52,799 nt of DNA from a virus. The stretch covers positions 1 to 52,799 of the IMG/VR virus record IMGVR_UViG_3300034108_000798. One strand, given 5' to 3'. The notes below the pieces were generated by a model. That model was not told where the DNA came from, searched no databases, and saw only the letters and a list, made by a program, of their open reading frames with translations. The position numbers and the translations under genes are program-made. Of this stretch, positions 35,775 to 52,799 are shown in pieces (within the stretch, counting starts at the first letter, position 1; each line of letters begins with the position of its first letter).

Positions 35775-36145
35775 TATCCTTCATCTCCATAAAGTTCAAG
35801 TGTTTTCTTAGCAGCCATAACAGCACCAATGTCATTCATTGATGGGATTAGGCCTTGCTTCATTCGGTCTATTTGCTCGCTATATTCTTCATCGGTAATT
35901 CTTGCTGTTCCTGGGAAAAACACGTGGGATCCATTTGGTTCTCCGTAGTAAGCAGCTGCTTGCTTTAGCTTAGCAATCTGCCCTTCGTCGCCCCTGTTTG
36001 CTGGAACGTTCAGGATATTGCCATCTCCATCGGTAAACCACTTGCCGTTAGCCTTTTTCCAAACATATACGCCCCAGGCATATCCCGTTTGATCTACAAG
36101 AGTTACTTTAGCTTTACCAATTGCTTCTGCAAATTTGTCTTCCAT
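35774..36145 (-). CDS. hypothetical protein upstream of portal (123 aa)
   Basis: No family is recognised. The sequence (AKVTLVDQTGYAWGVYVWKK, NGKWFTDGDGNILNVPANRG, YYGEPNGSHVFFPGTARITD) suggests a small alpha/beta domain and then a helical C-terminus. The upstream GTG is less likely than the ATG at 36145, which lies 7 nt after TGGTATACT. It is co-transcribed with portal and overlaps it by one base, so a packaging or head-related role is possible, but a small terminase subunit is not evident (no HTH). Confidence 0.6.
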   Translation of the reverse strand: MEDKFAEAIGKAKVTLVDQTGYAWGVYVWKKANGKWFTDGDGNILNVPANRGDEGQIAKLKQAAAYYGEPNGSHVFFPGTARITDEEYSEQIDRMKQGLIPSMNDIGAVMAAKKTLELYGDEG

Positions 36146-36152
36146 GACCACT

Positions 36153-36161
36153 AGTATACCA
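36153..36161 (-). promoter_or_regulatory. extended -10 promoter, probable leaderless start
   Basis: TGGTATACT on the minus strand lies 7 nt before the ATG at 36145 and would drive the 123-residue gene and portal. No ribosome site intervenes. Confidence 0.5.
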
Positions 36162-36163
36162 TA

Positions 36164-39733: not shown

Positions 39734-39739
39734 AGGTCT

Positions 39740-39748
39740 ATTTTAACA
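39740..39748 (-). promoter_or_regulatory. extended -10 promoter, probable leaderless start
   Basis: TGTTAAAAT on the minus strand lies 6 nt before the ATG at 39733. The same TAAAAT variant and spacing occur at 42020. Confidence 0.5.
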
Positions 39749-39791
39749 CATTAAGTAGTTAAAGTTATAGGTTATTTTTAAACATTAACCA

Positions 39792-40235
39792 TTAGCTTTC
39801 CACTGGAGGGGAGAAGCTTTCTCCATCCCATGCCCACCAATAAGAGACATTTTCTGAAAAACTGGTTATATCCATTGCAGTTACTTCACCTGTACTAAAT
39901 GCGGCCGCAAAAGCATCCTTAAGCAGCGAAAGACTATCCGTTAAGTCTAATATCATAAAAACAACATTTTCCTTGTCAATAAAAGCGTACCTTTTTTGAT
40001 TTGAATTAGCTTCAAGAATAATGCTATCTTCTGGGAGATGGGAGTTATCAAAGCTCTCGCCATTCCAAATTGATCCAATTGCTATATTTGGGATGCCGCT
40101 TATGTCTAGCCCTGTTGGCTCATTTAAAAAGCCATTTGACCATCTTAAAAAAACCTTATCTTCATAATTGCCTGCTATTGGCATAATGTGAAAAATTTCA
40201 TTTTCTACTAAAAAAGCATATCTTTTCTTTTCCAT
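39792..40235 (-). CDS. two-repeat protein with KRYAF/WDGESF motifs (147 aa)
   Basis: The protein is an internal duplication of about 70 residues. Each half starts with KRYAF (MEKKRYAFLVENEIFHIMPI; QKRYAFIDKENVVFMILDL) and ends with a WNGESF or WDGESF box. Short WDG-x-F modules recur in phage tail-fibre and structural proteins. I place the start at the ATG 40235 rather than 40244, since TATAAT lies 7 nt upstream of it. It stands alone between the fibre module and the LamG protein, so a fibre-associated role is possible. Confidence 0.6.
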   Translation of the reverse strand: MEKKRYAFLVENEIFHIMPIAGNYEDKVFLRWSNGFLNEPTGLDISGIPNIAIGSIWNGESFDNSHLPEDSIILEANSNQKRYAFIDKENVVFMILDLTDSLSLLKDAFAAAFSTGEVTAMDITSFSENVSYWWAWDGESFSPPVES

Positions 40236-40242
40236 ATTAATC

Positions 40243-40248
40243 ATTATA
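40243..40248 (-). promoter_or_regulatory. -10 promoter element, probable leaderless start
   Basis: TATAAT on the minus strand lies 7 nt before the ATG at 40235, in a 39-bp intergenic gap. It overlaps an alternative ATG at 40244, which argues against that codon being the start. Confidence 0.45.
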
Positions 40249-40274
40249 CCCTAATCTATCTATAAGTTTTATAA

Positions 40275-40781
40275 TTACATTGCACACGTGCCAGCTAGAC
40301 ACCTGAATGGTGAGACGCACGGAGGGCTACAAGAGGCAAACCTAGGTGGGAAGAACGGTGGGAAGAACGGTGGGAAGAACGGGAACCTAGGTGGGAAAAA
40401 CGGTGGGAAGAACGGTGGGAAGAACGGTGGGAAGAACGGTGGGAAGAACGGTGGGAAGAACGGTGGGAAGAATGGCGGGGTAGTTATAACTGTATCGGAA
40501 TACGCAGACCATTCACTCAGTCCAACAGCGTTTTGTGCACGAACACGATAGGCTTGTGAGGTTGACCCTTCTTGATTGACTGTAACCGATGTACCAGCCG
40601 TGCTCCCACTTTTCGAGTCTGTACTTTCCCAATAGTAAAGCGTTATGGGGCTTCCTCCATTATGTGGGGCTATCCAACTAACGATATCTTGGTTAACTTG
40701 CAAAGTTACAGTTGGTGCAGCTGGTGGTCGTGGTACAAAAGGACCGATAGCTCCAACAGATGCACCCAAAGCACCAGTCAT
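40275..40781 (-). CDS. FN3 protein with PPFF repeats and Cys-rich end, module 1 (168 aa)
   Basis: After a short lead, a fibronectin type III domain (about residues 20-100: VNQDIVSWIAPHNGGSPITL, SQAYRVRAQNAVGLSEWSAY) is followed by about 50 residues of PPFF-type repeats with RFPFF variants. It ends in a Cys-rich segment SCSPPCVSPFRCLAGTC (four cysteines). FN3 domains in virions bind cell-surface carbohydrates. The Pro/Phe stretch is probably rigid or surface-active; its role is unknown to me. The FN3 is very similar to the last FN3 of the protein at 51697-52536. The ATG overlaps the fibre stop codon, so the fibre and this protein are coupled. Confidence 0.7.
   Translation of the reverse strand: MTGALGASVGAIGPFVPRPPAAPTVTLQVNQDIVSWIAPHNGGSPITLYYWESTDSKSGSTAGTSVTVNQEGSTSQAYRVRAQNAVGLSEWSAYSDTVITTPPFFPPFFPPFFPPFFPPFFPPFFPPFFPPRFPFFPPFFPPFFPPRFASCSPPCVSPFRCLAGTCAM
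40341..40479. repeat. tandem repeat encoding PPFF, module 1
   Basis: Runs of the 12-bp unit GGTGGGAAGAAC (plus strand) encode PPFF on the minus strand, with one CCTAGG-linked variant encoding PRFPFF. The unit is nearly perfect over most copies, which suggests recent expansion by slippage or recombination. The same unit occurs at 51717-51932. Confidence 0.9.
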
Positions 40782-42013
40782 TAGGTTAATCCATTACCAG
40801 AAGCTATCCACGTAGTTGCTTCTACTTTTATAAGTGTTGCCATTCCGTAAGCAGCTAAAGATCTTGTGCCAGTTGCACTTCCACCAGCAAGTCGAAGAGT
40901 GTCCCCCGTAATGGCTATTAAACTGGTCACGTTTGCATTTATAACGAGAATGGTTGTTCCAATTTCAAATGGTACTGAAGAGTTAGATGGTATTGTAATG
41001 ATTTGGCTTGCACCAGTAACATAAATATGCTCTCCAGCGTGTGTTTTGCTAAGTGTCAAGTTTCCCGTGTTTAATATTACTTGTGGCAAACCAATATACC
41101 CCAAATTTTTTGCAGTATTAGCATTTACGTCTGGCTCAGATGGTGCTCCGATAATTGTTCCAGTAAATGTTGGACTACCTATAACAGAAACTTCGTTTCC
41201 AGAAACAGAAATATTGGTTCCAGCTGTGATTGTTCCTGCTCCAGAAAATTGAAAAACTTCAATATTGTTAGTGCCCACTACAAAAGTTGCAGGGTCATCA
41301 ACTACCTGAATCCATCCAGTACCAGCGTTAGTTCCATCCTGAACAAAGATATAGGCTCCTGGAATTTCATCAGCCTCATCACAGTAACCACATCTAGTTA
41401 AAACATATGGGGTAGACACTGACCCCATATCTGAAACAAAGTATCTTCCATTCTCGGCCTTGTTGGTTTGATTTTTTACAAGAATACCCTTACCTACTGC
41501 CCATCCAGTTGCTCCTGCTGCTTCAGCTGGAAAAACTCCATTTGCATTATAAGTAAGAGTTGCTCCAACTCCATTGGTTCCGTTGTTATACGTTGCATTA
41601 ATGTTTGCTGTGGTAGCTCCTAAAACCTGTGGCTTTGAAACAATTCCAGCTGCAATACCATCTACGTAAATCTTAGTTGCTGCATGAAGGTTAGATGTCG
41701 GTGGACCTGAAAGGGTTAGTGGGCCAGTCATTGTTCCACCAGAAAGATTTAGCTTTGATGAAATATCACCTGTGGGACCCACTAAGGATAGTAGCCAAGC
41801 AGACTCCGTCCCCACAAAACCATTTGATACAGCAATTTCGTATGCAGATTTTCCATCTATGGAGGGTAGCGAGTTCCAGGGGGTGCTTCCATTACCGATC
41901 TTGACCACGTTAGTGTCGTAAGCAAATCCCATCTCCCCCACGCCAAGAATAGTATTTGCGGTTGCCCATTGGGTGGCGGTACCACGTCTTTGAAGCATTC
42001 TATATAGGGACAT
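40781..42013 (-). CDS. tail-fibre protein, module 1 (410 aa)
   Basis: The N-terminus (MLQRRGTATQWATANTILGV, EMGFAYDTNVVKIGNGSTPW) matches the trimerising N-terminal domain of phage fibre and Mtd-like proteins. It is followed by SSKLNLSGGTMTGPLTLSGP and HAATKIYVDG, a common tail-fibre repeat. The middle (residues about 130-260) is a phage-fibre domain containing GKGILVKNQTNKAENGRYFV. The C-terminus (HIYVTGASQIITIPSNSSVP then IGTTILVINANV and WIASGNGL) is homologous to the partial protein at the right edge. It likely binds the host surface. Start lies 6 nt after TGGTAAAAT. Confidence 0.8.
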   Translation of the reverse strand: MSLYRMLQRRGTATQWATANTILGVGEMGFAYDTNVVKIGNGSTPWNSLPSIDGKSAYEIAVSNGFVGTESAWLLSLVGPTGDISSKLNLSGGTMTGPLTLSGPPTSNLHAATKIYVDGIAAGIVSKPQVLGATTANINATYNNGTNGVGATLTYNANGVFPAEAAGATGWAVGKGILVKNQTNKAENGRYFVSDMGSVSTPYVLTRCGYCDEADEIPGAYIFVQDGTNAGTGWIQVVDDPATFVVGTNNIEVFQFSGAGTITAGTNISVSGNEVSVIGSPTFTGTIIGAPSEPDVNANTAKNLGYIGLPQVILNTGNLTLSKTHAGEHIYVTGASQIITIPSNSSVPFEIGTTILVINANVTSLIAITGDTLRLAGGSATGTRSLAAYGMATLIKVEATTWIASGNGLT

Positions 42014-42019
42014 ATCTCT

Positions 42020-42028
42020 ATTTTACCA
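42020..42028 (-). promoter_or_regulatory. extended -10 promoter for the fibre module
   Basis: TGGTAAAAT on the minus strand lies 6 nt before the ATG at 42013. It is back-to-back with a plus-strand promoter at 42057-42067, so this is a divergent control region. Confidence 0.5.
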
Positions 42029-42056
42029 TATGATTATTCTATTTATCAGTTTTAGC

Positions 42057-42067
42057 TATGATACAAT
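42057..42067 (+). promoter_or_regulatory. -10 region for the plus-strand gene set
   Basis: TATGAT (42057) and TGATACAAT (42059-42067) overlap here, upstream of an AAGGAGG ribosome site at 42073-42079. Either would give a very short leader for the GTG start at 42085. Confidence 0.4.
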
Positions 42068-42084
42068 TAATTAAGGAGGCTTTT

Positions 42085-42723
42085 GTGTCAGTTCAGATTA
42101 TAGACAATTTTATTTCAGATAATGAGGCTAAGGCTATTGTTGATGCCCTATCCCCGCACCTAGTGGCTAGTGAAAGATTTGGCCTGTCAGAAACCCGCTT
42201 TGAGGACTATATGAAAGTTCTTAAGCATATATACGATGGAGAGTCTATCTTTGAAGGGCAAGACAATGCTGAGGCAGGTCTTTTATTTACACAAATAGTT
42301 AATGGTGTTGCCAAAAAGATTAATGATTTTTATGGGGTAGACGTCGTAGCCATAAACCCTCAGCTTGCAGAAATTTCTAAGGGTGGCAAAAATGACGGAC
42401 TACATTGTGACTCTGTCCAGCTAGACGGAACCCCTTGGGATGATGGAAACACGATGCTAGAAGATCTTGAGTTTTCAGCCTTAGTTTATTTAAATACTTC
42501 TGGAATAGACTATACTGGTGGAACCATTTATTTCCCAAATCAAGACATTAACCTTATGCCCAAAACTGGACAAATGATATTTTTTAAAGGAGACATTGAC
42601 CACCCTCACGGAGTTTCTGAAGTAACTTCTGGTAAAAGGTATGCCCTGGTGTTGTTCTATGGTCGCTCTGACCGTGTTAAGGTTTATTTACAGTATAAAG
42701 CTGGGGAAGCTATGGGCCTATAG
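42085..42723 (+). CDS. 2-oxoglutarate/Fe(II) oxygenase, prolyl-hydroxylase-like (212 aa)
   Basis: A double-stranded beta-helix oxygenase: 2-oxoglutarate + O2 + substrate give succinate, CO2 and hydroxylated substrate. Iron ligands are H107 and D109 (GLHCDS) and the distal His in HPHGVSE (H175); R185 (SGKRYAL) would bind 2-oxoglutarate. The typical YTGGTIYFP turn is present. The true start is GTG at 42085, with AAGGAGG 5 nt upstream; an ATG nine codons earlier lies inside the promoter. It is on the opposite strand to the seven other 2OG genes, which suggests separate acquisition. The substrate is unknown. Confidence 0.85.
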   Translation: MSVQIIDNFISDNEAKAIVDALSPHLVASERFGLSETRFEDYMKVLKHIYDGESIFEGQDNAEAGLLFTQIVNGVAKKINDFYGVDVVAINPQLAEISKGGKNDGLHCDSVQLDGTPWDDGNTMLEDLEFSALVYLNTSGIDYTGGTIYFPNQDINLMPKTGQMIFFKGDIDHPHGVSEVTSGKRYALVLFYGRSDRVKVYLQYKAGEAMGL

Positions 42724-42758
42724 CCCCCGCCCGCCTTATTTACAAAAACCTCTAATCA

Positions 42759-42767
42759 TGCTATAAT
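42759..42767 (+). promoter_or_regulatory. extended -10 promoter
   Basis: TGCTATAAT lies 35 nt upstream of the ATG at 42803, in the gap after the oxygenase gene. It could drive the 61-residue gene and the cupin gene. Confidence 0.5.
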
Positions 42768-42802
42768 TTTTAAGCAACATTTTTAGAGAATAGGATATTA
42801 TA

Positions 42803-42988
42803 ATGGAAAAAAATCAAGTAGTAGAAAAAATGGTTTCGATTGCAGAAGAATTTAACATGTTAGCAATCAATGGATCTGGATTGCCAGAAGACCAGGCCAA
42901 GCAAATGATTGATCAAGTTAGACCGCAGCTTTATGCAATTCAGGGCGAGATCTACGATGTCCTTGTACAAGATGGTATAATTAAATAG
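42803..42988 (+). CDS. hypothetical helical protein (61 aa)
   Basis: A small acidic protein of two predicted helices (VEKMVSIAEEFNMLAINGSG, DQAKQMIDQVRPQLYAIQGE). No family is recognised. It lies between the 2OG oxygenase and the cupin gene and has its own promoter and an AGGA site. A partner of one of its neighbours is possible but not shown. Confidence 0.55.
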   Translation: MEKNQVVEKMVSIAEEFNMLAINGSGLPEDQAKQMIDQVRPQLYAIQGEIYDVLVQDGIIK

Positions 42989-43006
42989 CAAACAGAAAGA
43001 TTATCC

Positions 43007-43597
43007 ATGAAAGAGATTTGGTCTAAGGCTAAAGAGAATCGGGATATTCTTCACTTTAAGGGTTTTCAGACTCCAGAAATTACTTGGGAAGACACTTTAA
43101 AATTTATTTACGACCTTTCAAAAATCCCAGCTAATGAAAGCTTTGCAGAAAGAGCGGAAAAGTCAAGAGGCTCTCAGGTGTTATTCGGTAGCGTTATCTC
43201 CAATCTTGGATATTTTTTGTTTGAAGAGAACAATCTCTTTCCAATTTTTAAAGGCGTCACCGAACTGATGGAAAAGGTAAATGGTGGAAATAGCGGAAAA
43301 GATTGCAATTACTATGATAAGGATAGGACTTCGGACTCATGTACCTGTGGAGAACAGTGGCACATACAAACCTTAAGATTTTCTATATCTGACCACTTAG
43401 TAAACAGTCATCACGACCCGAACAATGTTTTATACTGGCAAGTATTGGGAAACTCTTATTGGGTTATGAATGAAAAAAAAGAATACTGTCTAAAGCCTGG
43501 GGACCTTTTATATTTTAACAAAGAAGATGCACATTTGGTATGGCAAGATGGTCCAAGAGCTGGTATCATTATTGATGACATTCGGTCTAAAGAATAG
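43007..43597 (+). CDS. JmjC/cupin-like Fe(II) oxygenase (196 aa)
   Basis: The C-terminal half resembles a JmjC or ribosomal-oxygenase-type cupin: HHD (H135, D137) after LVNS, then NNVLYWQVLGNSYWVMNEKK, the KPGDLLYFNKEDAH segment with H176, and GPRAGII. These residues could bind Fe(II) in the HxD...H manner, and such enzymes hydroxylate protein or nucleic acid residues. A Cys-rich insert (KDC...SCTCG, three cysteines near residues 100-114) is unusual. The ribosome site is weak (AGAAAG). The family call is moderate: a plain cupin is the alternative. Confidence 0.55.
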   Translation: MKEIWSKAKENRDILHFKGFQTPEITWEDTLKFIYDLSKIPANESFAERAEKSRGSQVLFGSVISNLGYFLFEENNLFPIFKGVTELMEKVNGGNSGKDCNYYDKDRTSDSCTCGEQWHIQTLRFSISDHLVNSHHDPNNVLYWQVLGNSYWVMNEKKEYCLKPGDLLYFNKEDAHLVWQDGPRAGIIIDDIRSKE

Positions 43598-43622
43598 ATT
43601 TATTTTAAAAGGAGAATGTATC

Positions 43623-43805
43623 TTGGAATTTAAATACCGTGCTACTTCAGACTCTGTGTTAAAGTTTTTTGAAGAAAGCAATCAGACATTATTTTTTGAT
43701 ATAGCCTTGTTTAATGCCGTTTTAACGATAGAGGCCCCTGACGAAGATACCGCTGACAAAATAAGAATGACAGTCTCTGACATCACCATGTGGGAAAAGG
43801 TTTAA
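43623..43805 (+). CDS. small acidic protein, TTG start (60 aa)
   Basis: The gene starts with TTG at 43623, since AAAGGAG lies 8 nt upstream. The first ATG nearby is in another frame and stops after five codons. The protein (EFKYRATSDSVLKFFEESNQ, ending DKIRMTVSDITMWEKV) looks like an alpha/beta mini-domain. No family is known to me. It closes the plus-strand set and meets the minus-strand operon head-on at 43809. Confidence 0.55.
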   Translation: MEFKYRATSDSVLKFFEESNQTLFFDIALFNAVLTIEAPDEDTADKIRMTVSDITMWEKV

Positions 43806-43808
43806 CCT

Positions 43809-44390
43809 TTATAGCACATCCCAGTGTAAAAAGTCTCTAAATTCTCCATGACTAATAACTTTAGGATCTACCCACCAGTCTTCGTAGACAGATCTACGTA
43901 CTAAAGAGTATCCAAAAGAATCTAAAATTTCTCTTTGTGTATCCCTAATAGCCGAATTTCTCCAATACATGTTTGCATCGTGCTCAAACGTAATTACTGT
44001 AAACCTGTAAGTGTTTAGTGGAACTGCCAAAAGCCCCTGTAGTGTCCAGTATGGACTGCCCACTGGTCTACCAGCATCGTCGTAGCCCCCATCAATATCT
44101 ACCTGAAGAAAATCTATCTGCTTTGGAAAATTATTTTCTTCAAAATGCTTAACGTAATTAAAAGATAAAGCGTCCCCCATACATGGATTTTTTCTATTTA
44201 AATTAAACTCTTTTCTCATTGAGTCAACTATTTCAAAAGATACGCCAGTCCAGTCGTAGTCTTTTTCTAAAAGATAGGTGTTGTTCCCATTACTATAGTG
44301 TGCAGCTCCAAGCTCCACGTAATACCCGTTTCTTTTTTCCTTTAAAATGTCAATAATAAAGCTTTCTTCGTTAGTCATTTCATGTGTCAT
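43809..44390 (-). CDS. FkbM-like SAM methyltransferase (193 aa)
   Basis: A Rossmann-type methyltransferase: YYVELGAAHYSNGNNTYLLE (residues 23-42) resembles the SAM-binding GANxG...SNTYLLE motif of FkbM proteins. IDFLQVDIDGG (92-102) follows, and EHDANMY further on. FkbM enzymes methylate sugars and antibiotics, typically at hydroxyl groups. The glycines of the SAM motif are partly replaced (LGAAHYSNG). It ends the accessory operon and overlaps the preceding oxygenase by 4 bases, so the two may act on the same substrate, for example hydroxylation then O-methylation. Confidence 0.65.
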   Translation of the reverse strand: MTHEMTNEESFIIDILKEKRNGYYVELGAAHYSNGNNTYLLEKDYDWTGVSFEIVDSMRKEFNLNRKNPCMGDALSFNYVKHFEENNFPKQIDFLQVDIDGGYDDAGRPVGSPYWTLQGLLAVPLNTYRFTVITFEHDANMYWRNSAIRDTQREILDSFGYSLVRRSVYEDWWVDPKVISHGEFRDFLHWDVL

Positions 44391-44953
44391 TTAAATATCT
44401 CTTTTCTTAGTATAGTTGGTTCTTTTTCTGTACCACGTACAAAAACAGTTGAAAAATACCTTATGTCATCGCTTAAGACTGGGGTAGATCCATGCAAGAT
44501 ATGGCCACCGTGGATATAGAGAGAGTTTTTCTTTGGCTTAACGGTTATTCCTAAATCTGGATACTCTAACTGCCCCCCATCATAATTATCATTATAATAT
44601 AGGCATAATCCATATCCAATGTAGTAGTCTAAGTCTGGGATCCATTGATCGGTATGCGGATGTATAAAATCATCCTTTTTATATCTTTGTAAAATCATTT
44701 TTGGTGGATAGTAGTGGTAGGACTCAAACAAATTCTTCATCTTATTATTTATTTTATCAAAAACGGTTTCTGTTTTAAACTCTAAATTTTTTCCATACCA
44801 GAATCCTTTATCTCCACTTGCTTCTTCAGAGAACCAGGCTTTTTCTTCTGTTTTATTGATTATCTCATGAACCTCTTCAAGCTCTTCGTCTGTTAAAAAA
44901 TTATTAATCTCATAAACATCGTCGTATAGCTTTATAATATCCATCTTTATCAC
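44387..44953 (-). CDS. 2OG-Fe(II) oxygenase (188 aa)
   Basis: The iron site is H100/D102 (HPHTDQW) and the distal H154 in GHILHGSTP; R165 in DDIRYFS is the likely 2-oxoglutarate anchor. The short form (188 aa) consists almost entirely of the catalytic core, with the NDNYDGGQLEYPDLGI turn. GTG at 44953 overlaps the SDR stop (GTGA); an ATG three codons later is also possible. It may hydroxylate a peptide or sugar, with SDR and methyltransferase as neighbours. Confidence 0.8.
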   Translation of the reverse strand: MIKMDIIKLYDDVYEINNFLTDEELEEVHEIINKTEEKAWFSEEASGDKGFWYGKNLEFKTETVFDKINNKMKNLFESYHYYPPKMILQRYKKDDFIHPHTDQWIPDLDYYIGYGLCLYYNDNYDGGQLEYPDLGITVKPKKNSLYIHGGHILHGSTPVLSDDIRYFSTVFVRGTEKEPTILRKEIFK

Positions 44954-45618
44954 ATAAACTTACTATTAAAAATATTGCTAACCTCTAGATGATTAACGTT
45001 AAAATGTTTAGGCAAAGAGCCAATCCAGCGAATAACCTCTGCCATATCTTCTGCCGTTAATGAATATGGCTTGCTCTCTTCTTGAGTATCGATGGTTCCT
45101 GGGCAAATTTCTGTAATCTTAATTCCGTATTCTGGAAATTCCATTCTCATGGTATCTACCAGGGCCATTTCGCCCCTCTTAGCATTGCTATAGTTTCCCC
45201 CACCCCGAAAAGGAATTTTTCCAGATAAGGAGGTCACAAAGATTATAGTGGGTGATTCCGATCTTTTAAGAGCTGGCACAAAAAGCTGGGATAGGTACAT
45301 TGGACCAGAAACATTTATCTCATAAGCGGTCTTAAAGTTATCCATTGTTTCATTAATGATGCTTGTCGGACTAGCCCCACCACCCGCATTGTTAACAAGA
45401 AGGTCTATGGCCAAGTCGCCGTATTTTTCAAAGAATAGCTCAATTTCTTTTGGCTGGGTAATATCTAGCTTGTATGTTTCAACAGCATCAGACTCTAGTT
45501 TTGAAACTCTAGATAGGTCTCTTGAAACAGCAATAACCTTGTATCCATTTTCAGATAGCAGCTTTACTGTGGCATAGCCTACACCCTTGCTTGCTCCAGT
45601 AACTATGGCAGTTTTCAT
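44950..45618 (-). CDS. short-chain dehydrogenase/reductase (222 aa)
   Basis: A classical SDR: TGASKGVG at residues 7-14 binds NAD(P), NNAG at 76-79 stabilises the fold, and the catalytic triad S130 (VTSLSG), Y143 and K147 (NYSNAK) is intact. It would oxidise or reduce a hydroxyl/carbonyl of a small molecule, perhaps a sugar. Arg34 after the second strand (VSRD) favours NADP. The ATG overlaps the preceding oxygenase stop (ATGA). SDRs are rare in phages; this one is embedded in the oxygenase cluster and likely works in the same pathway. Confidence 0.85.
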   Translation of the reverse strand: MKTAIVTGASKGVGYATVKLLSENGYKVIAVSRDLSRVSKLESDAVETYKLDITQPKEIELFFEKYGDLAIDLLVNNAGGGASPTSIINETMDNFKTAYEINVSGPMYLSQLFVPALKRSESPTIIFVTSLSGKIPFRGGGNYSNAKRGEMALVDTMRMEFPEYGIKITEICPGTIDTQEESKPYSLTAEDMAEVIRWIGSLPKHFNVNHLEVSNIFNSKFM

Positions 45619-46466
45619 AGATCCAACATCTCGATTTCTTTTTTGTAGTATTCTTCAAATTCCATCCAGAATGGAATATTATTAATACTTTGTACGTTAG
45701 TGCTATCTCTATTAAACTTAAGCCTTTGGTCTTCTAGCTGCCGCCAAATATCCTCACCGTACTTCTCCTGAAGTTTTAACCAAAGGGGGTGTCCAGGATA
45801 TTCATATCTCCAGTAATTTCTAATTATATATTTTTCTCCACTAGTTACTGCCTTCACTCCATGGTAATGTGGTGGACCAGATGGAAACACGAGAATGTCT
45901 CCAGCAGATGGCTTATACGAATAATCTTTTTTTATAATCCATGGGTCATTTTCGTCAAGGAATCGGAACATAATCTCTCCGCCATCATAGTCTTCGTTTA
46001 GATAGAAAACTGCAGTAATTCCAAACTTTAATCCAGGATTGTAGGCAAACTCTCTTTGATAGTCTGTATGGTGCATCATCGCATAATCTTTGTGATGCTC
46101 TGGGTTTGTAATATACTTTGCAATATTCCAACCATCTTCAACCCAGTTATCTAGCGAAACATTATTGCTTTCCTTGTATAGCTTAGTTGCGTGGTAAAAC
46201 AAATCTTCTATCTGAGCCTCAAAATACTGTGGCTCTCCAGGGGCAGTTTCTTTATAGTTTTTAGCTTTTCTCCACTCTTCGAGAGTCGGAAATTCTTTAA
46301 ATATTCCTGAATCTAGGTTTGGACCGTCCGCTACTTTTCCAAAAGTATACCAGTCTTTCCACTCTTTATTTTCATTAAAGTAATTTACAAAATCTTTAGG
46401 ATTTTCTATAGCACCCTTAAAGACCCAAACCAAATCATCTATTTTTTCAACATTAAAATTATACAC
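45615..46466 (-). CDS. 2OG-Fe(II) oxygenase with N-terminal extension (283 aa)
   Basis: Iron ligands are H133 and D135 (MHHTDYQRE) and H202 in PPHYHGVKA; K212 in SGEKYIIR likely binds 2-oxoglutarate. The core carries YLNEDYDGGEIMFRF. It is the longest 2OG protein here, with about 120 residues before the core (VWVFKGAIENPKDFVNYF), and a helical C-terminus (FNRDSTNVQSINNIP). GTG start at 46466 has AAGG 6 nt upstream and overlaps the end of the previous gene by 8 bases. The Lys-type anchor resembles collagen prolyl hydroxylases, in contrast to the Arg-type members. Confidence 0.8.
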   Translation of the reverse strand: MYNFNVEKIDDLVWVFKGAIENPKDFVNYFNENKEWKDWYTFGKVADGPNLDSGIFKEFPTLEEWRKAKNYKETAPGEPQYFEAQIEDLFYHATKLYKESNNVSLDNWVEDGWNIAKYITNPEHHKDYAMMHHTDYQREFAYNPGLKFGITAVFYLNEDYDGGEIMFRFLDENDPWIIKKDYSYKPSAGDILVFPSGPPHYHGVKAVTSGEKYIIRNYWRYEYPGHPLWLKLQEKYGEDIWRQLEDQRLKFNRDSTNVQSINNIPFWMEFEEYYKKEIEMLDL

Positions 46467-47181
46467 TGCAGCCTTTTTTCATATCCATGTCATTGTGAAT
46501 CCAGTGACTAGGAATCATATACTTAACTCCAGATTTTACTGTGTGTGCAATGTGGTAGTATGGAGCTGAAGATGGAAAAATAATTACACTTCCAGCACTT
46601 GGTTTTACCCCAAAATCTATTTGATTCTTTTGTACCGCAACGTCGTAATCTAGGTCTGGGCTATCTACTTGATTATGATCCTCATAATCTGATAGCTTAA
46701 ATGAAATCTCTCCACCCTCGGGGACTTCGTTTAAGTACATAACCAAAGAATACCTAAGAGTTTTATCTCCGTCTAGCTGATCGTAATGTGCACCCATTGC
46801 TGCCCCAGTATCATACTTTTTAATATTAAAAACTGGAAACAGTCGTGGCTCATCTGCATCTCCTACTGACTTCGCATAGTCCTTGCATACCTCATATAAT
46901 GCTTTCATAATGTTGAGGTAAACATATTCCATTTTGCTTCTGTATGGCTCAGCCATTTGATTAATCTGATTTAGGTCAAAAGTCTGGGTTTCTCCATAGA
47001 TAAAGTCTTTGTCGTCTGAAGCAGTCCACTTGCCCCACAGCCCACCGCCATCTAAAATATTCATTTCAGTAAGTTCAGAGATTGTGTCCATAACTTGCTG
47101 AAAATTTTCAATTGCATCTTCATAGTAGTAAACCTTGTCATGCAGCATATTTTTTTTCATGTTAATACTTATTCCTCTCAT
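46459..47181 (-). CDS. 2OG-Fe(II) oxygenase (240 aa)
   Basis: H132 and D134 (GAHYDQLD), H210 (PYYHIAH) and K220 (SGVKYMIP) complete the active site. The core has VMYLNEVPEGGEISFKL and a long insert (SDYEDHNQVDSPDLDYD). Two ATG codons downstream (47160, 47148) are alternative starts; GAGAGGA lies 13 nt before the one at 47160. The 47181 start has only a weak site. The insert is absent from other members. Confidence 0.75.
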   Translation of the reverse strand: MRGISINMKKNMLHDKVYYYEDAIENFQQVMDTISELTEMNILDGGGLWGKWTASDDKDFIYGETQTFDLNQINQMAEPYRSKMEYVYLNIMKALYEVCKDYAKSVGDADEPRLFPVFNIKKYDTGAAMGAHYDQLDGDKTLRYSLVMYLNEVPEGGEISFKLSDYEDHNQVDSPDLDYDVAVQKNQIDFGVKPSAGSVIIFPSSAPYYHIAHTVKSGVKYMIPSHWIHNDMDMKKGCSV

Positions 47182-47201
47182 TAAATACTTTCTTTAGCTT
47201 T

Positions 47202-47960
47202 TCAATCATTTGAGTCGCCACCTATCTTATACGGATTGCCATCTAGATCTAGCTTATATCCATCTTTGAGCAAATCTTGCCATTCTTTTTTCTCTAATTC
47301 TTGAGACTCTCTAATTTTTTTCATTTCTTCTGCCCATGCATCTCTGACTTCTTGAGGATAAGCATCTTCTTCACGGTCATCCCAGAATGATCCTATGGTA
47401 TACCTAACTCCAGACTCTATTAAGGTTACTTCGTGCATGTTGTTAAATCCACCATTAAATGCCGCCAACATTCCGACTTTTGGAGATATTTCTAAATCCT
47501 GTTTTGGAAACTTTAAGGTTCCTCCAGAAAAATCATCATTTAAATAAAGAAATGCCGCATATCGACTTCTTGCAAACGGTCCAGTATTTCCGTGTTCATC
47601 TGTATTGTCTGAATGAACTCTGGCGTAAGCCCCAGGCTCCCACTTCTGAGTATGATAGCCTATCTCCACTATTGTGCTTGGGTCTAGGTCGTGGACTGAG
47701 GCTACCGCTTCAACTATTTTGGCTTTGATTTGTACAAAAATGTCTGAGGGCAAGCCAGACTCAACAATTTCAGCGTCTCCCTCTTTTGGAAGGGTGGAAG
47801 AGTAGGATTCATAAAAAGAAATAGGCGTCCACGTTAAGGTTGCGTTATCAGCAGCTTTATCTAAAACCTCTATAATCTTTGCAGACTCTTCTGGTGTTAG
47901 AAAATTTTCATAAACTACAATATCTTCTGTCAGCCTATTTTTATTTTGTAGGTTTGTCAT
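47202..47960 (-). CDS. 2OG-Fe(II) oxygenase (252 aa)
   Basis: H116 and D118 (RVHSDNTD), H176 (NNMHEVTLI) and R186 (SGVRYTIG) form the expected active site, with YLNDDFSGGTLKFPKQDLEI between. A helical N-terminus (NFLTPEESAKIIEVLDKAAD) is typical of P4H-like proteins. The acidic C-terminal part (AEEMKKIRESQELEKKEWQD) extends beyond the fold. The ATG has its own extended -10 box and a GGAG-type site. Confidence 0.8.
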   Translation of the reverse strand: MTNLQNKNRLTEDIVVYENFLTPEESAKIIEVLDKAADNATLTWTPISFYESYSSTLPKEGDAEIVESGLPSDIFVQIKAKIVEAVASVHDLDPSTIVEIGYHTQKWEPGAYARVHSDNTDEHGNTGPFARSRYAAFLYLNDDFSGGTLKFPKQDLEISPKVGMLAAFNGGFNNMHEVTLIESGVRYTIGSFWDDREEDAYPQEVRDAWAEEMKKIRESQELEKKEWQDLLKDGYKLDLDGNPYKIGGDSND

Positions 47961-47978
47961 TTACACCACTCCCATTAA

Positions 47979-47987
47979 ATTATACCA
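47979..47987 (-). promoter_or_regulatory. extended -10 promoter inside the oxygenase operon
   Basis: TGGTATAAT on the minus strand overlaps the stop codon of the oxygenase gene at 47980 and lies 18 nt before the ATG at 47960, with GGGAG between. It would uncouple the downstream genes from the operon head. Confidence 0.45.
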
Positions 47988-48660
47988 CGTCTTGTGGCTT
48001 TGTCTTATGAGCTAGGATTGTCCAGAAAAATGGAACTGTATATCGAATGCCAGACTTAATTTCAGTCACACCGTGGATGTAGTTTTTGTCTCCAGGGAAG
48101 AAGTATGCTGCACCAGCCTTTGGCTTAAATTGAATACCCTGGTTAGGGAAATACAATTCCCCTCCCTCATAGTCGTCATTAATATAGAACAGTCCAGCTA
48201 AATCGTAATATGGAAAATCGTTTGGCGTTCCAGCATCTGGACCTTCGTGCAACTCTTTATCTGCGTGTGGCATTTGAAGCTGCCCAGGCAGCCATCTAAC
48301 CATTGCTGGGCTGGTCGGATTAGCGTCAACTCCAAAAAAGTTATCCACTTCAATTTTTAGCCTTGCTACCATCTTTTCTATGAGATCTGGAATCTCTGGA
48401 TCGCCCTTTTGAATTGTTGGATAGGTGGCAACACGATTTGCCCAATAGTCTGCATCGTAAATTACTGTTCCATTTTCATTATGATGAGTTTCTGTGACAT
48501 CCCAGTTATTATTATTTCTAATAAAATTGTTTAGCCTTGATAGCTCTTCTTCTGTCATAAAATTTTCAAGAGAAACGATATTATCTGCAGACTCTCCAAA
48601 AAATCCAGACGGGGTAATTGACACCCTATCTACCCAATGATTATTTCTTAAATCATCCAT
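47980..48660 (-). CDS. 2OG-Fe(II) oxygenase (226 aa)
   Basis: H132 and D134 (MPHADKELHE), H196 (YIHGVTEIK) and R206 (SGIRYTVP) make up the active site, with INDDYEGGELYFPNQGIQF as the GG turn. I prefer the ATG at 48660, since AGGAG lies 9 nt upstream; the ATG two codons earlier is only 3 nt from it. The N-terminal half includes NFMTEEELSRLNNFIR, common to most of these paralogues. It is close in core sequence to the oxygenase at 47202. Confidence 0.8.
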   Translation of the reverse strand: MDDLRNNHWVDRVSITPSGFFGESADNIVSLENFMTEEELSRLNNFIRNNNNWDVTETHHNENGTVIYDADYWANRVATYPTIQKGDPEIPDLIEKMVARLKIEVDNFFGVDANPTSPAMVRWLPGQLQMPHADKELHEGPDAGTPNDFPYYDLAGLFYINDDYEGGELYFPNQGIQFKPKAGAAYFFPGDKNYIHGVTEIKSGIRYTVPFFWTILAHKTKPQDVV

Positions 48661-48672
48661 AAACATATTCTC

Positions 48673-49398
48673 CTATTCATACTTTCTTTTTTCCCAAACA
48701 TCTCTTAGATATACCCCGCCATCTGGAACCCTGTATTTATCAGAATTTGCCATATTCTTTTTTACGATAGACAGTCCTGACTCTTTTACATACTCAGATG
48801 TCCAGTCTTCTCTTTTAAATGGCATCATTTGCATATAAGGAGTTCCTGCTGGCAAAACGCCAGTCCAGTCTTTAGCAATAAAGAATGGCATAGTTCCTGG
48901 CAAGTTTACCTTATCATTATCAATTATACCGCTAGTTGTCAAAAATGGTAGATCATACCTGTCATAAGGCTGTGAATAAAGAACGCTATATCCTTGTGGA
49001 ACCTCTACAGCCCAGTCTGGAAACCATGCAAAGTGTTTTTCGTGATAGCCTCTTGGGCCTTCAAACTGTGGCATTTTTTCTCTGTCTTGGATAAAATCAG
49101 AATACTTTGGATCTAAAACTTTTGCAGAAATCTTATTGCTGCTATCCATAAAAAATTCAATATCGCAAGGAGTTCTATAGACATACCCAGTAGTAAGAAC
49201 ATCATACATCGCTGGACAAGCCTTCCACGTTGGGACTTTTCCTCCATCTGGCCCCACATAGCTTTTTCCATCTGGGTTTTTGTAAAATCTATCTGCTGAA
49301 ATATACCATTCTGGAAGGCTCTTTGAAGTTGGCTTTGGGGCAGAAGCATCTTCTTCAGAAAGCCACCCCCTATTAGTTACAAATTTAATCTTTGGCAT
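48673..49398 (-). CDS. unknown protein, distant relative of DUF6065 (241 aa)
   Basis: No function is known to me. It begins PKIKFVTNRGWLSEEDAS and shows PEWYISADRFYKNPDG, then KACPAMYDVLTTGYVYRTPC and DIEFFMDSSN, GYSVLYSQPYDRYDL and VLPAGTPYMQMMPFKREDW. The order of these motifs parallels the DUF6065-like protein encoded next to it (cysteine-Pro ... G ... P-x-DI-x-F and a late P-x-x-TP motif). It is beta-rich and might be a cupin-type fold. It is flanked by oxygenase genes on both sides of the pair. The overlap with the preceding gene is 14 bases. Confidence 0.55.
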   Translation of the reverse strand: MPKIKFVTNRGWLSEEDASAPKPTSKSLPEWYISADRFYKNPDGKSYVGPDGGKVPTWKACPAMYDVLTTGYVYRTPCDIEFFMDSSNKISAKVLDPKYSDFIQDREKMPQFEGPRGYHEKHFAWFPDWAVEVPQGYSVLYSQPYDRYDLPFLTTSGIIDNDKVNLPGTMPFFIAKDWTGVLPAGTPYMQMMPFKREDWTSEYVKESGLSIVKKNMANSDKYRVPDGGVYLRDVWEKRKYE

Positions 49399-50104
49399 TA
49401 TCTTTCACTTTCATTAAAATCTTTTTAGCATCGTGATAGCCAGCTGGACAACCCTTATGGTCGATGGCATCTCTATAAAAATGTGTCCACTCTCCACTAG
49501 AATTCATAGCTTGTTGAGCCTCTCCTCGCTCAAACATATTATCGACCCACTTTTGTGTCATATATGCTGGCCTATCGTTTCTAATTTCTAGTTCATGGTT
49601 TTGAATATCTGACAAAGATATTGGCACGATTGCTGCAATTGGAGTCTTTGCTGGAATTGTTATTTCAACGTTAGGCTCTGTAATCATCCAGGATACTGGA
49701 AACTCGTTAGAAAGAACAGATGTACTGATTAGTGTGGTCATACACTGAGCCCCTCGAATAAATTGATTAGGAACTGGCATTGTTAGTAAAGTAAAATTTT
49801 CATTTTCTTCGCCAGTAAAAGTTATGTCTGTGTAAAAACTTATGGTTGCATTACCTCGTCTAGGAGTTACATATTTTTCACCAGAAATAATTTTTACATG
49901 GTCTGGTGATGAGTCGTTTACACCGTCCCAAATAAACACGATGTCCTCTGGATAAGATATTCCCCAGCCAAGCCTATTTGACAAAGATACTGGAAAACAT
50001 TGGTATGCATGCTTTTCAAAAGTTATATCCATCCAATCACGATGCATTGGCAACTGGTCTATAACACTAACATCTCCAGAGGTGTATGCAAAAACTTTTT
50101 TCAT
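49385..50104 (-). CDS. DUF6065-like protein (239 aa)
   Basis: Motifs match what I remember of the DUF6065 family: MHRDWMDITFEKHAYQCFPV, SNRLGWGISYPEDIVFIWDG, TISFYTDITFTG, then MPVPNQFIRGAQCMTTLIST and VSWMITEPNVEITIPAKTPI. The family is found in bacteria and phages and has no known function. I place the start at the ATG 50104 next to the TGA of the previous gene (overlap of one base); a TTG just before it is possible. The protein is beta-rich; a sugar- or nucleotide-related role is a guess only. Confidence 0.6.
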   Translation of the reverse strand: MKKVFAYTSGDVSVIDQLPMHRDWMDITFEKHAYQCFPVSLSNRLGWGISYPEDIVFIWDGVNDSSPDHVKIISGEKYVTPRRGNATISFYTDITFTGEENENFTLLTMPVPNQFIRGAQCMTTLISTSVLSNEFPVSWMITEPNVEITIPAKTPIAAIVPISLSDIQNHELEIRNDRPAYMTQKWVDNMFERGEAQQAMNSSGEWTHFYRDAIDHKGCPAGYHDAKKILMKVKDNAKD

Positions 50105-50826
50105 CAATCCCCAGTTTCTTGATAAAATTCTGGCTTGTGATACTTTTCTGAATAATCTAGCATTGTTACGATCGAATGCTTTGTTCCAGACTCAACTGGC
50201 AAAGACTTGTGTGGATACATATAGTTTGATGGGAATATGAACAAGTCTCCAGCCCTAGGCTTAACCTTTAACCCTTGGAGCCTAAACTCTAGCTCACCGC
50301 CCAAATAATCATCATTTGGATAGGCTACTAAAGAAACTACGCAGTTATAAGAATATCCGTTATCTGAGTGTTCTTGAAAGTGTTGTCCTGGGCCATACTT
50401 TACAAAATTCATAGCTTCCCAGTATCGTAATTCACCAATGTTAAACTTTTTTGCGTAGTCTTTTACTGCCGCAACTTTTCTGTCATATAGGTCTTGCCAT
50501 AGATCCTGTAGGGTTTTTGATGCCTCTGATGTGTCGTGAGCAATATCTGTTTTTTTATACTTAAAGTCGTAGCAGTCTCTATACTCTGGCATTTTCATTC
50601 CATATCCCACCATAGCTTCCATGTAGTCATAGTGGTTTGACTTGTCGTCAAGAACCTGCTCTAATCTTTCTACAATGCCCATGTCAATTGGCAAAACATC
50701 GTGATATACAAAAATTCCAGGCGAAAGTTCTTCTACCGAAGACCATGTTTTTTCTGGAATATGATAATAATCTTCAAGTCTTTTTTGTACTACGTTGATA
50801 TCTTCTATTTCTTCAATGTTATTCAT
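50104..50826 (-). CDS. 2OG-Fe(II) oxygenase (240 aa)
   Basis: H153 and D155 (FQEHSDNGY), H206 (PHKSLPVES) and K216 (SGTKHSIV) form the active site, with YPNDDYLGGELEFRLQGLKV. It is a near sister of the oxygenase at 50837: both share FNFVKYGxG-like text before the core (AMNFVKYGPGQHF versus AFNFVKYEGAGKHF), -HxSLP- after the distal His and the ending MLDY/MTDY. AGGTAAAAA precedes the ATG. Confidence 0.8.
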   Translation of the reverse strand: MNNIEEIEDINVVQKRLEDYYHIPEKTWSSVEELSPGIFVYHDVLPIDMGIVERLEQVLDDKSNHYDYMEAMVGYGMKMPEYRDCYDFKYKKTDIAHDTSEASKTLQDLWQDLYDRKVAAVKDYAKKFNIGELRYWEAMNFVKYGPGQHFQEHSDNGYSYNCVVSLVAYPNDDYLGGELEFRLQGLKVKPRAGDLFIFPSNYMYPHKSLPVESGTKHSIVTMLDYSEKYHKPEFYQETGD

Positions 50827-50836
50827 TTTTTACCTA

Positions 50837-51595
50837 TCAGTATGTTAGTTTGTTTTGATCTTCTTCTCTATATGGAAAATAGCGAAGTCCTCCACGGTCG
50901 TTATAATCTGTCATAACAACAACTGAGTACTTTGTGCCGTTTTTCATTGGCAAAGAAGCGTGTTCATAAACATATGTGGATGGGAAAACAACAATATCTC
51001 CCTGCTTTGGCTTAATTGTTAAATCAAACCTTGGAAAATAAAGGTCTCCGCCCTCATAGTCGTCGTTAAGGTATGCAACTGCAGAAACTGTAGTAACATA
51101 TGCTGGACCGTGGTCAGCATGAATATTAAAATGCTTTCCAGCACCTTCATATTTTACAAAATTAAAAGCTTCATAGAATGAAATGCCAACCCCCCAGTAT
51201 TTTCCATAATCCTGAACGTTTGGATGAATTGCATCAAAGGTCATTTGATGAATATCATAAAGGGCTGAGTTTTCTTCATTTCTTGGACCATAGCTGTTGC
51301 TGCTAATTTTAAAATCAACACAGTCTCTTGCTTCTGACATTGCAGAGTCTGACTCAGTAACCATAGCACTGTGCCAGCTATATGTCTGGCTAGAGCTGTT
51401 TGTAAGTTTTGACTCGAGGGTGTCTATAATTTTAATAGAAGTTTCTTTTGATATTCCATTGTTGTAGATATTAATTCCCATTGCTGGGTTTGAAACAGAT
51501 ACCCCGCTCAAAGTTAGTCGGTCTGGCACCCTATTTTTATCAGTTTCTGATCTATCTTTTGTAAACCAGTCGTCTTTATTTTCTTGAGTTTCCAT
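50837..51595 (-). CDS. 2OG-Fe(II) oxygenase, first gene of the cluster (252 aa)
   Basis: H159 and D161 (NIHADHGP), H212 (EHASLPMK) and K222 (NGTKYSVV) form the active site; YLNDDYEGGDLYFPRFDLTI is the GG turn. The start is the ATG at 51595, 6 nt after TGCTATAAT, without a ribosome site; the TTG six codons earlier lies inside the promoter. As the first gene of the leaderless operon it may be the most strongly expressed oxygenase. It is a tandem duplicate of the gene at 50104. Confidence 0.8.
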   Translation of the reverse strand: METQENKDDWFTKDRSETDKNRVPDRLTLSGVSVSNPAMGINIYNNGISKETSIKIIDTLESKLTNSSSQTYSWHSAMVTESDSAMSEARDCVDFKISSNSYGPRNEENSALYDIHQMTFDAIHPNVQDYGKYWGVGISFYEAFNFVKYEGAGKHFNIHADHGPAYVTTVSAVAYLNDDYEGGDLYFPRFDLTIKPKQGDIVVFPSTYVYEHASLPMKNGTKYSVVVMTDYNDRGGLRYFPYREEDQNKLTY

Positions 51596-51601
51596 GGCAT
51601 A

Positions 51602-51610
51602 ATTATAGCA
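51602..51610 (-). promoter_or_regulatory. extended -10 promoter of the oxygenase operon
   Basis: TGCTATAAT on the minus strand lies 6 nt before the ATG at 51595. It is in the 100-bp gap after the FN3/PPFF gene and would start the accessory operon down to 43809. Confidence 0.5.
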
Positions 51611-51696
51611 CAAAGTCTTTATTATTCAAAATCACTCTTAACAGGCTATTTTTAAAAATCAAAATGTTAAATTACTTTATTGTCTATTTAGACATT

Positions 51697-52536
51697 TTAG
51701 ACTGCTCTAACCCTGAATCTAGGTGGGAAGAACGGGAACCTAGGTGGGAAGAACGGTGGGAAGAACGGGAACCTAGGTGGGAAGAACGGTGGGAAGAACG
51801 GGAACCTAGGTGGGAAGAACGGTGGGAAGAACGGGAACCTAGGTGGGAAGATTGGTGGGAAGAACGGTGGAAAGAATGGAGGGAAAAACGGGGGGAAGAA
51901 TGGTGGAAAGAATGGGGGGAAGAATGGTGGTGTTGTGATGATTGTAGGAGAATATGGAGACCACCCTCCAAGCCCATTTGCGTTTTCTGCACGAACACGA
52001 TAAGCTTGTGAAGTAGAACCTTCTTGAGTAACTGTAACCGAAGTAGATACTGTATTGCCACTTTTAGCATCATCGCTTTCCCAATAATAAAGAGTGATAG
52101 CTGTTCCTCCAGTTGCTGGAGCAATCCAACTAACCACATCTTGATTAACTTCTGGAGTTGCAGTTGGAGCAGATGGCGTGGCTGGAACAGTAGTAACTGC
52201 TACTGTAGTTGTTGCAGAAGCTGCAGATGTTCCTGCTGCGTTTGTTGCTGTTACACTTATGGTGTATGTTGTTGCAGATTTAAGTGTCTCTACTATGATG
52301 GGTGAGGTAGCTCCCGTAGCTGTTCTAGTTGTTTCCCCAGCAGCGGTAGCCGTTACGGTAAAAGAAGTTGCTGGGGGAGATCCTGCTGGCAGTTCAAAAG
52401 CTACGCTTGCTGCACCATCATCAAAAGCTCTGCCCGTTCCTACGTTTGTAGCAACTATACTTACAGGGGCAAGAGGTTCGAGTTCGAGAAAGTCATTCTG
52501 TTGTGATGACTTTCCTCCAGCTTCTTTCTTTGCCAT
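51697..52536 (-). CDS. two-FN3 protein with PPFF repeats, module 2 (279 aa)
   Basis: Two fibronectin type III domains: the first about residues 20-115 (AFELPAGSPPATSFTVTATA, SATTYTISVTATNAAGTSAA), the second 120-205 (VNQDVVSWIAPATGGTAITL, SQAYRVRAENANGLGGWSPY). A Pro/Phe tail of about 70 residues then has PPFF units and 11-residue FPFFPPFFPPR units, ending PPRFRVRAV without cysteines. Compared with module 1 it has an extra FN3 and a longer repeat. AAGGGG lies 10 nt before the ATG. A virion attachment or fibre-tip role is inferred from FN3 and from coupling to a fibre gene. Confidence 0.7.
   Translation of the reverse strand: MAKKEAGGKSSQQNDFLELEPLAPVSIVATNVGTGRAFDDGAASVAFELPAGSPPATSFTVTATAAGETTRTATGATSPIIVETLKSATTYTISVTATNAAGTSAASATTTVAVTTVPATPSAPTATPEVNQDVVSWIAPATGGTAITLYYWESDDAKSGNTVSTSVTVTQEGSTSQAYRVRAENANGLGGWSPYSPTIITTPPFFPPFFPPFFPPFFPPFFPPFFPPIFPPRFPFFPPFFPPRFPFFPPFFPPRFPFFPPFFPPRFPFFPPRFRVRAV
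51717..51932. repeat. tandem repeat encoding PPFF and FPFFPPFFPPR, module 2
   Basis: Two types occur: 12-bp PPFF units near the FN3 end, and at least three 33-bp units linked by CCTAGG near the C-terminus. The C-terminal units are nearly identical in DNA, while the FN3-proximal units differ at synonymous positions. This gradient suggests recent homogenisation or growth at the C-terminal side. Confidence 0.9.
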
Positions 52537-52548
52537 TTATTCTGCCCC

Positions 52549-52799
52549 TTAAACCTTAAGATCTCCATAGAGAATCCAACTATCTGTTCCACGCTTTAAT
52601 ATTGTAGCAGATGACCACTGTGTTCGTAGCTTATTTCCTGGAGTTCTGTTTAAAGTCACACCCATAGCGGCGTCAATAGTTACCTCTCCAGTGTTTGTTT
52701 GGAAAATGTCCATAGATGCTCCAATTGGCCAAGCTAATGTTGCATTAGTTGGAATTGTAAAAGTCATCGGGCTGGTAGAGTTCATCTCAATAACGCTAT
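52549..52799 (-). CDS. tail-fibre protein C-terminus, module 2 (partial, cut by window edge)
   Basis: The reading frame is open to the window edge (upstream codons read VIE before the first ATG at 52785), so the gene starts outside the window. The visible part (PMTFTIPTNATLAWPIGASM, NTGEVTIDAAMGVTLNRTPG, SSATILKRGTDSWILYGDL) is homologous to the C-terminus of the module 1 fibre. It ends 13 bases before the FN3/PPFF gene. Confidence 0.7.
   Translation of the reverse strand, partial: SVIEMNSTSPMTFTIPTNATLAWPIGASMDIFQTNTGEVTIDAAMGVTLNRTPGNKLRTQWSSATILKRGTDSWILYGDLKV

Follow-up and report, generated by a model that had tools for sequence, protein, structure and literature searches.

The window, by which we mean the whole 52,799-base IMG/VR virus record of an uncultured aquatic phage, carries tail, capsid, and replication genes and a block of eight 2-oxoglutarate (2OG) oxygenase genes. 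This block is a conserved downstream module of a tail gene that encodes an (FFPP)n repeat, and not a generic accessory region. The linkage of 2OG genes to the FFPP gene is specific and directional. Because the block is a downstream module of this tail gene, a virion protein is the most likely substrate. On balance, we favor the view that the phage encodes a module that would hydroxylate its own proline-repeat tail protein, with a putative activity, a candidate substrate, and a predicted product.

Layout of the block

The 2OG block (42058-51613) sits between two FN3-type tail genes, each of which encodes (Phe-Phe-Pro-Pro)n. The features are as follows.

51697-52536, minus strand: FN3-domain tail protein (Pfam fn3, 2.5e-9) whose last ~90 residues are (FFPP)n / PRFPFFPP repeats; heads the block; proposed substrate
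50837-51613, minus strand: 2OG oxygenase 8; HAD165-167, H218, Lys anchor; separated by 83 nt from the FFPP gene upstream; PF13640 4.9e-12; 74/74 orthologues intact
50104-50826, minus strand: 2OG oxygenase 7; HSD153-155, H206, Lys anchor; PF13640 2.4e-13; AlphaFold pLDDT 93; 93/93 orthologues intact
49385-50107, minus strand: DUF6065 protein, conserved cassette member; PF19541 1.6e-23
48673-49398, minus strand: phrog_7084 protein with no assigned function, conserved cassette member; phrog_7084 2.4e-30
47980-48666, minus strand: 2OG oxygenase 6; HAD, H198, Arg anchor; PF13640 1.2e-6; 106/106 complete orthologues intact
47202-47960, minus strand: 2OG oxygenase 5; HSD, H176, Arg anchor; PF13640 1.6e-8; 52/52 complete orthologues intact
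46459-47181, minus strand: 2OG oxygenase 4; HYD, H210, Lys anchor; PF13640 1.7e-9; 26/26 intact
45615-46466, minus strand: 2OG oxygenase 3; HTD, H202, Lys anchor; PF13640 1.3e-11; 17/17 intact
44950-45618, minus strand: short-chain dehydrogenase/reductase (SDR); PF00106 5.9e-38
44387-44953, minus strand: 2OG oxygenase 2; HTD, H154, Arg anchor; PF13640 28.5 bits (six-frame) or 26.9 bits (hmmscan); 12/12 complete orthologues intact
43809-44390, minus strand: putative methyltransferase-like protein; no significant family or PDB profile match
43007-43597, plus strand: JmjC/cupin-like protein, H135-x-D137...H176; possible ninth oxygenase; JmjC_2 E 0.0017, below cut-off
42058-42723, plus strand: 2OG oxygenase 1; HCD, H184, Arg anchor; PF13640 3.5e-10; 8/8 intact
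40781-42013, minus strand: tail fibre protein with Mtd_N domain; PF18454 3.9e-11 and tail-fibre PHROGs
40275-40781, minus strand: another FN3-like protein with (FFPP)n, paralogous to the 51697 gene; its C-terminus is rich in Cys; fn3 E 0.069, below cut-off

An earlier note on this DNA had placed all eight oxygenase ORFs close to these positions, except that it began the first at 42085 instead of at the ATG at 42058.

The major capsid protein of the window is 79-100% identical to its counterparts in many viral contigs, while its nearest relatives in isolates are mainly from Streptomyces phages (~42% identity). Among phage isolates, there was no megablast match to positions 36000-52799 of the window.

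Eight old and intact oxygenases

The earlier note's description of eight 2OG ORFs, each with HxD, a distal histidine, and an arginine or lysine anchor, was borne out. In a six-frame search, all eight exceed the PF13640 cut-off of 27 (28.5-53.2 bits), and all eight also match phrog_61. With hmmscan, seven pass and 44387 falls marginally under (26.9 vs. 27). The HxD, the distal His, and an Arg or Lys 9-11 residues further on are kept in every one. Across the eight orthologue groups, the four active-site residues are intact in all 388 orthologues from other contigs, counting sequences that are complete at all four sites. Also, dN is 0.06-0.22 and dS is mostly above 1, and sampled dN/dS ratios (~0.04-0.17) are well below 1 for all eight. 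The intact orthologues and the low dN relative to dS exclude decayed copies.

In the phylogeny proposed in the earlier note, every one of the eight forms a separate clade together with homologues on other phage contigs (maximum likelihood, support 91-100), which implies that the set is old and not a recent burst. The eight proteins are strongly diverged. The closest pair are genes 7 and 8, which are 38% identical over their full length and form sister clades; the tandem duplication of 50104 and 50837 that the note saw is therefore genuine, and it is ancient, as each copy has a separate set of orthologues. These comparisons support a retained multi-enzyme oxygenase system comprising eight old, separately conserved lineages with intact sites. 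That much agrees with the multi-step or multi-substrate system that the note drew from the number of genes, but eight per phage is not unprecedented (Synechococcus phage S-SCSM1 is reported to have 24 2OG oxygenase ORFs; PMC9602691), and the note missed the FFPP tail context.

By profile and by fold, the nearest relatives of these enzymes are protein prolyl hydroxylases. The best match for a profile of the eight is the prolyl 4-hydroxylase (P4H) of Bacillus anthracis (1.5e-14), followed by a PKHD hydroxylase, prolyl 3-hydroxylase 1 (1e-11), and the P4H enzymes of PBCV-1 and Chlamydomonas. The AlphaFold model of gene 7, the one protein modelled (pLDDT 93), has the double-stranded beta-helix fold and matches P4H structures; its top Foldseek matches are P. 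putida P4H:EF-Tu, algal P4H:(Ser-Pro)5, and PHD2. The conserved active sites are intact and the fold is that of prolyl hydroxylases. Some protein prolyl hydroxylases act on proline-repeat proteins. Members of PF13640 also act on free amino acids and small molecules. The resemblance fits a protein-hydroxylase role and is not proof of it.

The FFPP repeat proteins

Across 157 distinct repeat proteins, which were partly selected for the pattern, the repeat unit is [F/Y/H/W]-F-P-P and both prolines are over 99% conserved. The Gly-X-Y repeat of collagen is absent from the putative substrate. Codon variation within the FFPP repeats is synonymous and leaves the amino acids unchanged, and the differences between the FFPP gene and an orthologue are mostly at third positions.

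The genes at 40275-40781 and 51697-52536 share 300 nt at 79% identity. These stretches (40348-40647 and 51800-52099) are direct repeats of ~300 nt that bracket the whole block, and they could favor recombination or its deletion.

Aromatic-proline repeats of tail proteins also come in variants such as SPFGF, FGPFGVF, FFTPPFFPP, and HFPP (at L293:1-660, L309:639-1358, L187:4774-5751, and L473:5433-6248). Many FN3-repeat tail proteins of related phages have a C-terminal Hint/intein-like domain, with ends like "...GGYLVHN" (L130:2841-4130, where PT-HINT scores 8e-5, below cut-off; L475:4262-5626; L235:9800-11185; and L265:3-1034). This suggests autoprocessing of the tail protein.

In a scan of cellular genomes for FFPP, four of the 12 matches listed had clear tail-type repeats, and all four were on MAG contigs. 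In the open-licence literature searched, we found no paper that describes the FFPP repeat or connects it with 2OG genes, which is not proof of novelty.

2OG genes lie downstream of FFPP genes

The earlier note had proposed a search for similar clusters, and the pairing of 2OG and FFPP genes does recur in many other environmental phages. A scan for three FFPP units gave at least 120 stretches in viral contigs, which we call FFPP loci; the pattern scans are samples. To count 2OG genes in the loci, we used a profile made from the eight proteins of the window itself, which we checked against PF13640 on whole records. Among the matches listed, 85 of 120 FFPP loci contain a 2OG ORF, at 2.9 per 10 kb. 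The density is 0.20 per 10 kb in loci with related capsids and 0.03 per 10 kb in chance viral loci. In the matches listed, FFPP contigs thus have ~15-20 times the density of comparable phage loci and ~100 times that of chance viral contigs.

The arrangement is also directional. Among the matches listed, 89 FFPP ORFs had sufficient sequence and 53 of them are followed within 1 kb by a 2OG ORF on the same strand, none of 60 has one upstream, and 199 of 220 nearby 2OG ORFs are on the FFPP strand. For 54 of the listed FFPP genes, the contig continues for 4 kb downstream; 43 of these have a same-strand 2OG gene in that stretch and 11 do not. In a shift test with eight records, 55 of 62 2OG genes were within 10 kb of an FFPP gene, as compared to a permutation mean of 25.6, and this was not reached in any of 20,000 permutations. 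A census of the families near FFPP genes (matches listed) was led by FN3/tail proteins (93 loci), followed by 2OG oxygenases (85 loci), an apparent artefact from another reading frame, and phrog_7084-like proteins (38 loci, with likeness judged by eye). A glutathione-peroxidase-like gene (PF00255) is near FFPP in 18 of the 120 loci, among the matches listed (such as L073:9876-10457).

The association is also seen in records that were picked by capsid similarity alone. Strict FFPP is present in seven of 30 such records, each with 6-10 PF13640 matches, while 21 of the 23 without it have 0-3 matches. (Fisher P = 1.8e-5, with related contigs treated as independent; because the contigs share ancestry, such P values overstate the evidence.) Two records have at least six 2OG genes and no strict FFPP. 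G014 has a gene with HFPP/FFPF repeats ~50 nt upstream of its gene 8 homologue. The contig of G002 begins immediately before the gene 8 homologue, so a repeat gene would fall off the contig. Among 24 long records that were picked for FFPP, all have PF13640 and 21 have four or more matches, although some have only one or two such genes.

Is the FFPP repeat the substrate?

The pairing with a proline-repeat tail gene is specific, directional, and widely repeated, and its simplest reading is that of enzyme and substrate. The partner gene is specific, its position is strict, and its repeat is simple, so its product is a concrete candidate substrate. We infer enzymatic activity, the FFPP repeat as the substrate, hydroxylation as the product, and a role in adsorption. 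On the other hand, eight enzymes seem to exceed the apparent need of one simple repeat.

One alternative is that the oxygenases modify some other virion or tail protein, such as the fibre or the FN3 domain, or several such proteins, and that FFPP merely belongs to the same adhesin operon. In S-SCSM1, tail-fibre genes that lack FFPP are immediately preceded by four 2OG genes. Also, among loci for FN3-type proteins with other aromatic or Gly-Pro repeats or Hint tails, 10 of 14 have a 2OG gene nearby. But these loci mostly have just one, and several of the proteins carry other aromatic-Pro repeats or Hint tails, so we rejected the FN3 domain alone as the linked feature. A generic tail-fibre neighborhood is ruled out by loci with Mtd_N tails, which have 2.07 2OG genes per 10 kb with FFPP (16/16 loci) and 0.14 without. 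Nor is the linked feature any proline-rich tail repeat: fibres with RQP repeats are weakly linked to 2OG genes (0.42 per 10 kb; 8 of 43 loci among the matches listed). Collagen-like loci without FFPP or FN3 have no 2OG genes at all (0/48, matches listed). We consider this alternative unlikely.

Another alternative is a small-molecule or host-surface pathway, in which the oxygenases, SDR, methyltransferase-like protein, and DUF6065 make or alter a glycan, a lipid, or a free amino acid. The SDR and methyltransferase-like genes are interspersed among the 2OG genes, PF13640 is a broad family, and the Foldseek matches to gene 7 include PolD of Streptomyces cacaoi. Pfam bears out the SDR that the earlier note named at 44950. 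However, the SDR (7 of 120 FFPP loci, among the matches listed) and the methyltransferase-like gene (5 homologues) are rare compared to the 2OG genes, the best matches of the oxygenases are protein hydroxylases, and the gene order is fixed to a structural gene. We view such a pathway as quite improbable.

The note had also called the protein at 43809 an FkbM-like methyltransferase, for which searches of Pfam, PHROGs, NCBIfam, and PDB profiles gave no FkbM or methyltransferase match and hence no support. As for its JmjC/cupin-like gene, 43007 scores 18.3 bits against JmjC_2, below the cut-off of 22 (E 0.0017), and matches phrog_4992 at 5e-6; its one close homologue retains H135, D137, and H176, and the label has weak support. 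There is one DUF6065-type protein (49385, by Pfam) instead of several, since 48673 is phrog_7084 without a Pfam match. The viral contigs contain 50 relatives of DUF6065, each at a locus that also has 2OG genes; a fold search gave just a weak dUTPase-like match (E 1e-3). phrog_7084 has at least 25 non-redundant homologues in the retrieved loci. Tailed viruses of haloarchaea also encode homologues of the protein at 48673-49398 (26-30% identity); their genes adjoin those for thymidylate synthase and DNA polymerase, and these neighborhoods give no functional clue.

A final alternative is modification or repair of nucleic acids (of the TET/JBP or AlkB type), or control of cellular 2-oxoglutarate as proposed for cyanophages (PMC3037559). 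In its favor are these published proposals and Tet_JBP matches to genes 2 and 6, which are weak and below cut-off. However, the linkage is to a tail gene and not to replication genes, and eight divergent enzymes, each conserved separately, are more than a 2OG sink would require. We regard this alternative as very improbable.

A proposed tail-maturation system

Returning to hydroxylation of the FFPP repeats, we propose that FN3-(FFPP)n proteins are tail adhesins, and that the repeat offers a long run of identical and probably exposed Pro-Pro/aromatic sites. The neighboring 2OG-Fe(II) oxygenases would be protein hydroxylases of the prolyl-hydroxylase type that act on these repeats before or during virion assembly. 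The paralogues probably differ from one another in the residue, carbon, or repeat context that they target (Pro-3, Pro-4, PRF junctions, or other tail residues). The product would be a hydroxyproline-rich tail, analogous to the action of P4H on the repeats of collagen or extensin. Later steps may fall to DUF6065, phrog_7084, the SDR, and the methyltransferase-like protein.

The broader proposal is of a widespread phage system in which prolyl-hydroxylase-like paralogues, DUF6065, and phrog_7084 make an adhesive fibre, rich in hydroxyproline and possibly decorated further, out of the (FFPP)n repeat of the tail; we see the case for it as evenly balanced. If true, this would be a phage counterpart of collagen and extensin maturation and would give phage 2OG oxygenases their first substrate class. 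Phages would tailor their own tail surface by a modification that is most familiar from collagen and plant walls, and many "metabolic" phage genes would be recast as virion-maturation genes.

Comparison with known systems

Phages with many 2OG genes are already known, and roles in nitrogen signalling, DNA repair, and general reprogramming were proposed for them (PMC3037559, PMC9602691). Eight in one phage is no record; the link to FFPP is likely the added context. The 2OG oxygenases of T4-like cyanophages are from the same family (phrog_61, PF13640), with several per genome, sometimes next to tail-fibre genes. But cyanophages have many 2OG genes without FFPP (there is no FFPP repeat gene in the two that we checked), and the best identity of gene 8 to phage isolates is ~32% over part of its length. 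The short tail fibre of S-SCSM1 (ORF245, L351:8279-9544) has an Arg/Pro-rich (RQPxxx)n insert of ~230 residues and is next to seven 2OG genes. Other viral contigs have RQP repeats of a similar kind, in one case along with a Hint-like tail (L369).

The protein P4H and P3H enzymes (B. anthracis P4H, P. putida P4H:EF-Tu, algal P4H-1, PBCV-1 vCPH, PHD2, and P3H1) have the fold, the HxD...H, and the basic 2OG anchor in common with the phage proteins. The phage differs in having an operon of eight paralogues that adjoins an FFPP repeat, instead of a collagen, Ser-Pro, or HIF motif. Another parallel is collagen modification in giant viruses: mimivirus is likewise reported to encode both a repeat protein and the enzymes that modify it (PMC9546862). 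That system is from a eukaryotic virus and involves Gly-X-Y collagen, whereas here the repeat is aromatic-Pro and is in a phage tail.
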